Source of the DNA: an uncultured Anaeroplasmataceae bacterium | Lineage (GTDB): Bacteria > Bacillota_I > Bacilli_A > Acholeplasmatales > Anaeroplasmataceae | DNA: 64,000 nt | Reading direction: 5' to 3' | NCBI GenBank assembly: GCA_949840955.1 | Contig: CATKXV010000002.1 | Coordinates: 124,001-188,000, forward strand | In this document: positions 26,080 to 30,840 of the stretch, one piece after another | Layout: each line of letters opens with the position of its first letter | How positions within the stretch are numbered: the first letter of the stretch is position 1 | The notes under the pieces: generated by a model | Seen by the model: the letters and a program-made list of their open reading frames with translations, nothing else | The model's database searches: none | What the model was told of the DNA's origin: nothing | Made by a program: the position numbers and the translations under genes

Positions 26080-27264
26080 TTACTCAAGAATGTCAACTAC
26101 AGAACCTGCACCTACAGTATGTCCACCTTCACGGATAGAGAACTTAGTACCTTGTTCCATAGCAATTGGGTGAATTAATTCAACAGTCATTGTTGTATTA
26201 TCACCAGGCATAACCATTTCAGTACCAGCTGCTAAAGTAATGATACCTGTAACGTCAGTTGTACGGAAATAGAATTGAGGACGATAATTTGAGAAGAATG
26301 GTGTATGACGACCACCCTCGTCCTTTGATAATACATAAACCTGAGCAGTAAACTTCTTATGAGGAGTAACTGATTTTGGTTTAGCTAATACTTGACCACG
26401 TTGAACTTGATCACGGTTAATACCACGAAGTAATACTCCGATGTTATCTCCAGCCTCAGCATAGTCTAATAGCTTACGGAACATTTCAACACCAGTAACA
26501 ACTGAAGTTTGAGTTTCCTTAATACCAATGATTTCAACTTGATCACCAACGCGAACTTGTCCACGCTCAACACGTCCAGTAACAACTGTACCACGACCTG
26601 TAATTGTGAATACGTCCTCGATAGGCATTAAGAATGGCTTATCCGTATCACGTACTGGAGTTGGAATATAGTCATCAACAGTTGCCATTAATTCTTCAAT
26701 CTTGCCAACCCAAGTTGCATCACCCTCTAAAGCCTTTAATGCAGAACCACGGATGATAGGAATATCATCACCTGGGAAGTCATACTCGCTTAATAATTCA
26801 CGAGTTTCCATTTCAACTAGGTCGATTAATTCTTCATCATCAACCATATCACACTTATTTAAGAATACAACTAATCTAGGTACACCTACCTGACGAGCAA
26901 GTAAGATGTGCTCACGAGTTTGAGCCATAGGTCCATCAGTTGCAGCGATAACTAAGATACCACCATCCATCTGAGCAGCACCAGTAATCATGTTCTTTAC
27001 ATAGTCGGCATGTCCTGGACAGTCAACGTGTGCATAGTGACGATTTTCAGTCTCATACTCTACGTGTGCAGTATTAATTGTAATACCACGCTCTTTCTCT
27101 TCTGGAGCAGCATCGATCTGTGCATAATCCTTAGCCTGAGCTAAACCCTTCTTTGAAAGAATAGTTGTAATAGCTGCAGTTAAAGTAGTTTTACCATGAT
27201 CTACGTGTCCAATTGTACCAATGTTAACATGTGGTTTGGTACGTACAAATTTTTCCTTTGCCAT
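26080..27264 (-). CDS. tuf: Elongation factor Tu
   Basis: Delivers aminoacyl-tRNA to the ribosome. 394 aa, with G1 GHVDHGKT near residue 19, DCPGH, NKCD and the C-terminal beta-barrel domains complete (ending [12 protein letters not shown]). It is the last gene of the rpsL-rpsG-fusA-tuf operon and additionally has its own promoter in the fusA-tuf gap. AGGAGG precedes the ATG. Confidence 0.99.
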
Positions 27265-27367: not shown

Positions 27368-29434
27368 TTACGCTCTACTCTTAATAATCTCTTCCTGAAT
27401 GCTTCTAGGAACAGCTTCATAATGATGTGTTTGCATAATGAAGTTACCACGTCCCTGAGAGTTAGAACGAAGAGCTGTTGCATAACCAAACATTTCAGCA
27501 AGTGGAACATAAGCACGAATTTTCATACCATTTCCACGTTTTTCTTGAGAATCCAAACGGCCACGACGGCTAGTTAGGTCTCCAATTACGTTTCCTACAT
27601 ATTCCTCTGGAACAGTAACATCTACTTCCATGATTGGTTCAAGTAATACAGGCTTACATTTTTCCTTTGTAACCTTTAATGCCATTGATGCAGCAATCTT
27701 AAAGGCCATTTCAGAGGAGTCAACCTCATGATAGGATCCATCAAATAGAGTTGCTTTAACATCAATCATAGGATATCCAGCTAAAACACCATTAGGTAGT
27801 GCTTCCTGTAATCCCTTATCAACAACAGGGATATATTCTCTAGGAACTGTACCGCCGACAACCTTGTCAACGAATTCATATCCCTTATCTGGATTTGGTT
27901 CAAATTTAATCCAAACATGACCGTATTGTCCACGACCACCAGACTGACGAATGAATTTACCTTCACAATCAGCAGCCTGAGTAATTGTTTCACGATAAGA
28001 AACCTGTGGAGCACCAACGTTTGCAACAACGTTAAATTCTCTTTTCATACGGTCTACGATAATATCTAGGTGAAGCTCACCCATACCTGCAATAATGGTT
28101 TGTCCTGTTTCAGAATCCGTATAGGTTCTAAATGTTGGATCTTCTTCTGCAAGCTTAGATAAAGCAGTAGACATTTTTTCCTGATCTGCCTTTGTTTTAG
28201 GCTCAACAGCAACATTTATAACTGGCTCTGGGAATACCATCTTTTCTAGAATAACTTCATACTTTTCATCACAAAGCGTATCACCTGTTGTTGTATTCTT
28301 AAAGCCTACTGCAGCAGCTATATCTCCTGCATAAACCTCTTTAATTTCCTCACGGTGATTTGCATGCATCTGAACAATACGTCCTAAACGTTCTTTTGTA
28401 TCCTTTGTCGTATTTCTAATATAAGAACCAGAAGAAATGTGACCTTGGTAAACACGGAAATAGGTTAATCTTCCTACAAATGGGTCGGCAACAACCTTGA
28501 AGGCTAATGCTGCAAAAGGAGCATCATCTGTAGAATGAATATCAATTTCCTCACCATTGTGATCTGTTCCCTTGGTTGCTTCAATATCTGTAGGAGCTGG
28601 TAGATAGTCAATAACACCATCTAGCATCTTCTTAACACCCATATTCTTGAATGCAGATCCACAGAACACAGGGAAGAATTGTACAGCTAATGTAGCCTTA
28701 CGAATTACAGACTTTAATAAATCTGTAGGAATTTCTTCTCCCTCTAGATATAACATAGCTAAATCATCATCAAATTGAGATAGGGTATCAATTAATAATT
28801 CTCTCTTCTCATTTGCTAAATCTACTAAATCTGCTGGAATTTCAGCTTCCTTATAGTTCTCATCTTGACCACCATCATAAAGATATGCTTTCATCTCTAT
28901 TAAGTCAATTTGACCCTTAAACTGATCTTCAGCACCAATTGGCCATTGTACAGCAGCAGCTACTGCACCCAAACGATCATGGATTGTATTTACTGAATAT
29001 TCAAAATCAGCACCAATCTTATCCATCTTATTGACAAATACAATACGAGGTACGTTATAATCTGTTGCCTGACGCCATACAGTTTCTGTTTGTGGCTCAA
29101 CACCAGCCTGACCATCAAGTACTGTAACAGCACCATCTAAAACACGAAGTGAACGAGAAACCTCTACTGTAAAGTCTACGTGTCCTGGAGTATCAATGAT
29201 GTTAACTCTATAATTGTTCCAAATTGCTGTTGTTGCAGCTGAGGTAATGGTAATACCACGCTCCTGCTCCTGAGCCATCCAGTCCATTGTAGATGCACCA
29301 TCATGTGTTTCACCAATTTTATGGATTTTCTTTGTATGGAACAAAATACGTTCCGTAGTCGTCGTCTTACCAGCATCAATGTGAGCCATGATACCGATAT
29401 TACGCGTTTTTTCTAATGTAAATTCTCTTGGCAT
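27368..29434 (-). CDS. fusA: Elongation factor G
   Basis: The GTPase that drives ribosomal translocation. 688 aa. G1 AHIDAGKTT (about 17-25), the switch-region [22 protein letters not shown] and NKMDK are all present, and domains IV-V are complete, including [11 protein letters not shown]. It is third in the str operon, 25 nt after rpsG. Confidence 0.99.
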
Positions 29435-29459: not shown

Positions 29460-29930
29460 TTACCAACGATAATGTGCAAAGGCTCTATTTGCTTCTGCCA
29501 TCTTATGTGTATCTTCACGCTTCTTACAAGCTCCTCCTACACCATTTGCAGCATCCATGATTTCCTTTGCTAACTTTTCTTCCATAGTTTTATCATTACG
29601 AAGACGAGCATATTTGATTAACCATCTTAAACCAAGGGTTTGTTTTCTTTCAGGTCTAACCTCAACTGGTACCTGATAGTTTTGTCCACCAATACGACGG
29701 CTCTTAACTTCTAAAACTGGCATAATGTTTTCTAGTGCCTTTGTAAATACTTCTAGTGGATCTTGTCCAGTAGCTTCTTTCACACGGTCAAAAGCACCAT
29801 ATAAAATTGTTTGTGCAGTTCCCTTTTTACCATCTAACATAATTGTATTAATAGTTCTTGTAACTACCTTTGAATTATATATTGGATCTGGAAGCACATC
29901 TCTTTTTGCAATATGTCCCTTACGAGGCAT
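29460..29930 (-). CDS. rpsG: 30S ribosomal protein S7
   Basis: 156 aa, the normal length. The S7 pattern is clear ([36 protein letters not shown]). It binds the 3' domain of 16S rRNA and nucleates head assembly. It is second in the str operon, with a 29-nt gap to rpsL. Confidence 0.99.
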
Positions 29931-29959: not shown

Positions 29960-30376
29960 TTATTTTTGTTTTGGGCGCTTTGCACCATATTTAGAACGAC
30001 CCTGATTTCTATTAGCTACACCAGTAGTATCTAGGGCACCACGAATAATATGATAACGAACACCTGGTAAATCCTTAACACGTCCACCACGAATTAATAC
30101 AGTACTATGCTCCTGTAAGCTATGACCAATACCAGGAATATAAGCTGTAACTTCCATTCCATTTGTCAAACGCACTCTGGCATATTTACGTAAAGCTGAG
30201 TTTGGCTTCTTAGGTGTCATAGTAGTAACACGGGTACAAACCCCACGCTTTTGAGGTGATGGAAGCTTTGTATATTTCTTTTCTAAGCTGTTAAATCCAA
30301 TACCTAAGCTTGGTGATTTAGACTTAGAAACCTTATCTGTTCTTCCGTTACGTACTAATTGTTCAATAGTTGGCAT
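29960..30376 (-). CDS. rpsL: 30S ribosomal protein S12
   Basis: 138 aa, a decoding-centre protein. Hallmarks [17 protein letters not shown] and [18 protein letters not shown] are present; the residues that mutate in streptomycin resistance sit in the usual context TPKKPNSA. First gene of the str operon. The leader is about 90-150 nt and contains two short hairpins (about 30,392-30,409 and 30,431-30,449). GAAAGGAG precedes the ATG. Confidence 0.99.
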
Positions 30377-30469: not shown

Positions 30470-30497
30470 ATTATATCAAAAAAAAAAGATAAGTCAA
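30470..30497 (-). promoter_or_regulatory. Proximal str-operon promoter P2
   Basis: Minus-strand TTGACT (30497-30492), a 16-nt spacer with a long T run, and TATAAT (30475-30470). Start would be near 30,463. Confidence 0.75.
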
Positions 30498-30532: not shown

Positions 30533-30561
30533 ATTATACAAACACACGAAATCGTGTGCAA
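30533..30561 (-). promoter_or_regulatory. Distal str-operon promoter P1 with palindrome in the spacer
   Basis: Minus-strand TTGCAC (30561-30556), a 17-nt spacer and TATAAT (30538-30533). The inverted repeat at 30543-30558 begins inside the -35 and fills most of the spacer, the position of a repressor operator. No regulator is identified. Confidence 0.65.
30543..30558. repeat. Inverted repeat, copy 1 (in promoter P1)
   Basis: CACACGA and TCGTGTG separated by AA. The same 16 bases recur at 30623-30638, 80 bp away (center to center). Confidence 0.8.
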
Positions 30562-30608
30562 TAAATATGTTGAAATTTCAGCATTTTATGGTATTTGAAA
30601 CATTTTTA

Positions 30609-30640
30609 AATCAAAAAGAAAACACACGAAATCGTGTGTT
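30609..30640 (-). terminator. Inverted repeat, copy 2, with terminator features
   Basis: AACACACG and CGTGTGTT form an 8-bp stem with a 4-nt loop (30621-30640). On the minus strand it runs into TTCTTTTTGATTT, so it may end transcripts coming from the NYN gene. The shared core with copy 1 leaves an operator role equally possible. Confidence 0.5.
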
Positions 30641-30728: not shown

Positions 30729-30803
30729 GCCTGGTTAGTTAAATGGATATAACGTGATCCTCCTAAGATTAAATTGTGAGTTCGATTCTCGCACCGGGTG
30801 CCA
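30729..30803 (+). tRNA. tRNA-Arg (anticodon CCU), CCA encoded
   Basis: A cloverleaf can be folded by hand. The acceptor stem is GCCTGGT with ACCGGGT (two G-T pairs), the D stem GTTA/TAAC, the anticodon stem TGATC/GATTA with loop CTCCTAA (anticodon CCT, reads AGG), and the T stem GTGAG/CTCGC with loop TTCGATT. The CCA end is encoded. It is the only plus-strand gene I can support and stands alone between two minus-strand operons. Confidence 0.93.
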
Positions 30804-30816
30804 TAGAAAAGATATC

Positions 30817-30840
30817 GGGTGGCTTAAGCCACCCTTCTTT
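30817..30840. terminator. Terminator of the tRNA, possibly also of the NYN gene
   Basis: GGGTGGC-TTAA-GCCACCC (30817-30834), followed on the plus strand by TTCTTTTT. The stem is symmetrical. On the minus strand only a short A/T stretch follows it. Confidence 0.8.

Follow-up and report, generated by a model that had tools for sequence, protein, structure and literature searches.

Predicted WhiA-type paired operators upstream of the str operon promoter in Anaeroplasmataceae

Two elements, A and B, precede the str operon of an uncultured bacterium of the Anaeroplasmataceae, a family of wall-less gut bacteria, and recur upstream of rpsL in its relatives; very probably they are a conserved operator through which the str promoter is controlled at the DNA level. 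From sequence comparison, we predict that A and B are paired WhiA-type operators, a reading to which we give somewhat better than even credence.

Results

Elements A and B lie upstream of a conserved str promoter

The DNA analysed, referred to here as the window, was a stretch of 64,000 nt (positions 124,001-188,000, forward strand, of contig CATKXV010000002.1, assembly GCA_949840955.1; full assembly, 2.1 Mb). It contains the str operon, whose products are ribosomal proteins S12 and S7 and the two elongation factors EF-G and EF-Tu. Elements A and B are positioned between rpsL and a divergent tRNA-Arg gene, and each holds a copy of the palindrome CACACGAAATCGTGTG (Table 1). A previous sequence-only reading of this DNA had reported two identical palindromes 80 bp apart. 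Scanning of the window confirmed identical copies 80 bp apart, start to start, and at up to two mismatches it returned these two sites and no more, against 0.01 expected by chance. The exact palindrome had no third copy in the 2.1-Mb assembly, and the genome-wide search proposed in that reading found exact copies confined to the region upstream of rpsL.

Table 1. Coordinates of the str operon, its promoters and the neighbouring elements in the window
Feature	Position	Strand	Remarks
tuf, str operon	26080-27264	minus	
fusA, str operon	27368-29434	minus	
rpsG, str operon	29460-29930	minus	
rpsL (S12), str operon gene 1	29960-30376	minus	
Conserved str promoter TTGACT-N16-TATAAT (TGATATAAT)	30470-30497	minus	followed by conserved GCTGT
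Promoter-like TTGCAC-17-TATAAT	30533-30561	minus	overlaps B; present in this genome alone
Element B, CAAACAC-ACGAAATC-GTGTG	30539-30558	plus	core antisense to rpsL; palindrome 30543-30558 inside
Short inverted repeat ATGTTGAAATTTCAGCAT	30568-30585	none	between A and B, adjoining B
Element A, AAAACAC-ACGAAATC-GTGTG	30619-30638	plus	palindrome 30623-30638 inside
tRNA-Arg(CCT)	30729-30803	plus	divergent from rpsL, ~90 bp past A
Terminator GGGTGGCTTAAGCCACCC	30817-30834		separate from A and B

The palindrome had also been described as filling the spacer of a promoter. As a description of the sequence this is nearly right, as the copy at B overlaps the last three bases of the -35 hexamer and 13 of the 17 spacer bases of TTGCAC-17-TATAAT. 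Control of a promoter by such spacer-filling did not hold, because this promoter is confined to the present genome and the element lies 40-41 bp upstream of the conserved one. The TATAAT over B was missing at the corresponding place in all nine genus-mates read (9/9), and TTGCAC-17-TATAAT is probably not the main promoter; as a species-specific sequence, it was rejected in that role in favour of the conserved promoter at 30470-30497. The latter, already noted as a second promoter downstream, proved to be real: TG stands ahead of its -10 box, its consensus score is 11/12, and almost every Anaeroplasmataceae and Acholeplasmataceae-like region upstream of rpsL had a counterpart.

The short inverted repeat adjoining B has the form TTGAAATATCAA in the genus, followed by a T-rich run, and several g6 members have a GGCTTAA..TTAAGCC hairpin with a T-run between A and B in place of the ATGTTGAAATTTCAGCAT-type repeat.

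The box is conserved as an asymmetric element

We compared the upstream rpsL regions of ten genomes of the genus (g1), including this one, and of other Anaeroplasmataceae genera. Both A and B were kept upstream of rpsL in g1 and in most of g6, and g3 and g4 had a single copy, B. The results showed that the family-wide element is GAHACRC-N8-GTGT(A), antisense to rpsL; a frequent form is CACACRAAGTCGTGTGTTTC in g1, and the g6 form is TACAC-N6-CGGTGTWTC. Perfect symmetry of both copies was peculiar to this genome among the rpsL upstream regions compared, and both of its cores are without the first G (AAAACAC in A, CAAACAC in B). The exact palindrome, taken earlier as the functional unit, was therefore rejected as such: relatives keep the asymmetric GAHACRC-N8-GTGT, not the symmetry, which is incidental to this genome. 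Absence from close relatives had been named as grounds for abandoning the proposal; elements A and B do recur upstream of rpsL there, although the exact palindrome does not, and this conservation supports the suggestion of a dedicated, paired DNA operator at the str operon.

Genome-wide, the g1 form at two mismatches matched the rpsL sites plus a handful of others, about the level of the reversed-pattern control. The g6 form was found at 22 sites spread over 14 of the 55 family genomes, and in those 14 the reversed pattern matched nowhere; in the loci compared the g6 form lay upstream of rpsL in the same orientation, and one of the two places in genome G075 was on another contig. A genome-wide regulon of the box was rejected, near-matches elsewhere being at about control level.

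Spacing was scanned with GAHACRC-Nx-GTKK upstream of rpsL and in rpsJ leaders, with shuffled controls. N8 was dominant upstream of rpsL in Anaeroplasmataceae (28 matches; shuffles near zero) and in the rpsL leaders of further families in the order (f3/f5; 35 matches, both strands being counted as the boxes are nearly symmetric), and it was present in 29 of 30 family rpsJ leaders (shuffles near zero). Other spacings were near zero, except for N7 in g4 and extra registers of symmetric boxes; the secondary N10 count in f3/f5 probably reflects a second register of this kind.

Outside Anaeroplasmataceae, families of the order have the box in sense within the rpsL 5' leader, just ahead of the ribosome-binding site (e.g. 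GAAACACTTGGATATGTGTTTC) and ~100 nt past the same promoter, recognised by TATAATnAAAnCGCTGT; in Anaeroplasmataceae it is antisense and upstream of the conserved promoter. The rpsL leaders of these other families (L206-L245) also carry an attenuator-like hairpin, TTTTGGCT-n-AAGCCAAAA, with a T-run upstream of the box. Core-like boxes were seen ahead of rpsL in Stoquefichus, Coprobacillus, a Clostridium MAG and Aerococcus; with 5 sense matches of 79, versus 0.5 by simple shuffling, this wider spread is suggestive only. Two streptococci (L058 and L062) have an antisense GATACACTTGG ~35 bases before rpsL that matches the WhiA core.

Spacing of the elements relative to the promoter and to each other

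In 28 of the 34 g1, g3, g4 and g6 sequences, 40 or 41 bp separated the 3' edge of B from the -35 box downstream of it; the other six had 38 bp (two sequences), 26 bp (two), 30 bp and 42 bp. In the 22 sequences with both elements, the A-B distance was either 80-81 or 91-95 bp, with nothing between. Since the two classes are roughly one helical turn apart and both are represented in g1 as well as in g6, the results suggest that A and B must face the same side of the DNA. The earlier remark that the geometry suits DNA looping is borne out in so far as the two classes fit cooperation or looping; with 22 A-B pairs from a shallow tree the sample is modest, and we count the geometry as support, not proof.

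The spacers of A and B match within each genome

The 8-letter spacers of A and B differed by a mean of 1.8 letters within a genome and 4.7 between genomes (permutation p < 1e-4 overall, and <=0.001 inside each genus). Identity between A and B fell to background right at the element edges, so gene conversion carrying the flanks along is a poor fit. The rpsJ spacer did not co-vary with the rpsL spacers between genomes. Matching of A to B may itself be under selection. Because the spacer letters are equal within a genome and differ between species without following the rpsJ site, we put forward, as a possible but doubtful reading, that WhiA or a related protein governs a further ribosomal operon via two promoter-upstream boxes that must match, by homotypic pairing across a DNA loop rather than by independent binding.

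WhiA is the candidate protein

In Mycoplasma gallisepticum, 2024 work found that the HTH domain of WhiA binds the core GAYACRCY and its HEN domain the auxiliary motif GTTGT in the rpsJ promoter region, that WhiA represses rpsJ and responds to ATP, and that its recognition region spans ~20 bp, the 34 bp covered less 8 and 6 (PMC11701221). In acholeplasmas, the WhiA site at rpsJ lies ~40 nt after the start site (PMC11701221). The main text of that paper does not mention rpsL, and nothing relevant to WhiA and rpsL together was found within the literature covered.

The rpsJ leaders of the genomes compared here carry GAYACRC-N8-GTTGT, a WhiA core and auxiliary site whose length of 20 bp agrees with the recognition region. 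In this genome the rpsJ leader has GACACACTGAAGAGCGTTGT, with the core 48 nt past the -10 box and hence ~41 nt past the start, and whiA is present, with HTH and LAGLIDADG domains and related to solved WhiA proteins. Upstream of rpsL, the published core GAYACRCY was exact in eight family boxes from seven sequences (e.g. GATACACCG), with GAAACRC in most others, and in genome G035 box B (GATACACCGATAACCGTTAT) was close to the genome's own rpsJ site (GATACACCGATGGGCGTTGT). At rpsL the auxiliary GT-rich motif was sharply preferred at N8 from the core, both in Anaeroplasmataceae (f1) and in f3/f5, which agrees with rpsJ; its letters were GTGT(A) and not GTTGT. A wholly unknown repressor is not needed, since the box matches the published WhiA core and auxiliary site.

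Four observations keep the assignment to WhiA at the strength given above. The first G of the core is missing here; position 8 of the rpsL box is A in this genome and mostly A in the genus, where WhiA sites have C or T; the spacers do not co-vary with those at rpsJ; and in the phytoplasma-sized genomes whose rpsL region was read, the box was missing where whiA is absent and likewise in g24 genomes with whiA (its HTH domain was undetected in 9 of 17 g24 genomes searched). In addition, the genome-wide N8 pattern recovered rpsJ in this genome and missed A and B, and genome G016 has whiA and the rpsJ site without the rpsL element. Four loci of phytoplasma-sized g24 genomes (L233, L236, L239 and L240) have rpsL closely after a coding region, apparently rpoC, without the usual promoter and leader.

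The rpsJ leader (L189:1813-1914, minus; G000, C2 near 205191) matches Rfam RF03136 (S10-Clostridia). The WhiA core and auxiliary motif fall in an unmodelled apical insertion of that family, so that at rpsJ a DNA operator may share sequence with an RNA leader.

A and B could instead serve another dimeric regulator of the str operon, as yet undescribed, with an ACAC-N8-GTGT inverted repeat as its target. The quasi-palindromic form of the element, perfectly symmetric in this genome, would suit such a protein, as would the extension of the repeat to GAAACAC-N8-GTGTTTC in Acholeplasmataceae-like leaders and the co-variation of the A and B spacers, which the rpsJ spacers do not follow. We nevertheless consider it rather unlikely: both core and spacing coincide with the WhiA site in the rpsJ leaders of the same genomes, several family boxes match the published core exactly, and other genomic targets of the box were not found, which would be unusual for a separate regulator.

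The element very probably acts as a DNA signal

Across the order the box occurred both in sense and in antisense, and both before and after the promoter. Its arms lacked pair covariation, with 77.4% of cells paired versus 76.5% in shuffles, a single double change, and disruption of the three outer pairs in 9 to 16 of the 24 sequences. Both observations point to DNA and not RNA as the signal, and an RNA signal is not expected to survive the change from a sense leader to an antisense position upstream of the promoter. This bears on the reading of the repeats as structural, in which RNA hairpins would act as terminators, an attenuator or a ribosomal-protein binding site, and which we regard as very unlikely. 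Terminator features had been noted at the upstream copy, and in this genome A, read on the minus strand, does give a terminator-like hairpin and T-tract; in other families, a version of the box is itself transcribed as part of the leader, immediately ahead of the ribosome site. The terminator features are not conserved, however. Hairpin energy ranged from -11 to 0 kcal/mol among relatives and was zero in several g4 members that retain the element, a stable hairpin with a T-tract was not kept, and the family's element, antisense to rpsL, precedes the conserved promoter. An Rfam search at A and B gave no match, and a separate terminator is already present at 30817-30834.

The rpsL-leader attenuators (PMC2965389) and RF03136 resemble A and B as regulatory sequences ahead of rpsL or rpsJ, and in the order's rpsL leaders the box is likewise preceded by a hairpin of attenuator type. 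The attenuators and RF03136 are transcribed RNA structures, whereas A and B stand ahead of the conserved promoter and their arms lack pair covariation.

Service to the divergent tRNA-Arg(CCT) gene instead of the str operon, to which the nearness of that gene to A and the sense orientation of the elements relative to it might point, is highly improbable, because many g6 members without a tRNA there keep both elements, the rigid 40-41 bp spacing is to the rpsL promoter, and the rpsL leaders of other families have the box downstream of the promoter. Least probable of all are NrdR boxes. NrdR binds helically phased pairs of ACAC-N8-GTGT-like boxes at a pair spacing of ~31, so that outer letters, inner length and pairing agree with A and B, but the target genes (here rpsL), the spacer composition (CG-containing versus AT-only) and the pair distance (80-95 bp versus ~31) differ; no NrdR was found in 11 genus genomes, each with a single ATP-cone protein whose frame of 726-764 aa is of reductase size, and the ~3-kb loci around the ATP-cone gene were without an ACAC-N6-8-GTGT box.

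Discussion

We propose that A and B would act as WhiA-type operators composed of a GAHACRC core, an 8-bp spacer and an auxiliary GTGT or GTKGT motif. WhiA would bind B in a fixed register ~87 bp before the transcription start, as estimated from the -10 box, and would bind A ~8-9 helical turns above B, probably contacting the protein on B. Occupied together, the two sites would form a repressing loop or allow contact with polymerase from upstream. The str operon would be tuned jointly with the rpsJ/S10 operon, whose site agrees in core, spacer length and auxiliary motif. If M. gallisepticum is a guide, ATP would be the signal and low ATP would bring repression; a site ahead of the promoter also leaves room for activation. 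WhiA as the binding protein, the pairing of A with B, and the sign and signal of the effect are what we infer from these comparisons.

In Streptomyces, where activation by WhiA is also possible, WhiA sites (GACAC) act with WhiB and the housekeeping holoenzyme, and the targets are cell-division genes. The protein family, a GACAC-type core and action at promoters are common to that system and to our reading of A and B; the WhiB partner and the cell-division targets are implied for neither element. The closer likeness is to the WhiA rpsJ operator of Mollicutes (PMC11701221), which shares a GAYACRCY-like core, an N8 spacer to a GT-rich motif, a length of ~20 bp, a ribosomal-protein operon as target and the presence of whiA. 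A and B differ from it in targeting the str operon, in being two antisense copies whose spacers match within a genome, and in their second motif, GTGT(A) in boxes of this type versus GTTGT at rpsJ. The rpsJ operator lies ~40 nt downstream of the start, and characterised mycoplasma WhiA sites are downstream of the start site, whereas A and B are upstream of the promoter.

To our knowledge, little is known of the way in which reduced bacteria without a wall adjust ribosome output to their energy supply. Among ribosomal-protein operons, WhiA binding sites have so far been shown only at rpsJ/S10. If the present reading is true, WhiA would coordinate at least two ribosomal operons, including the genes of EF-G and EF-Tu. 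The shift of a single DNA box from the leader to a place upstream of the promoter within one order is also a clean case of operator relocation.
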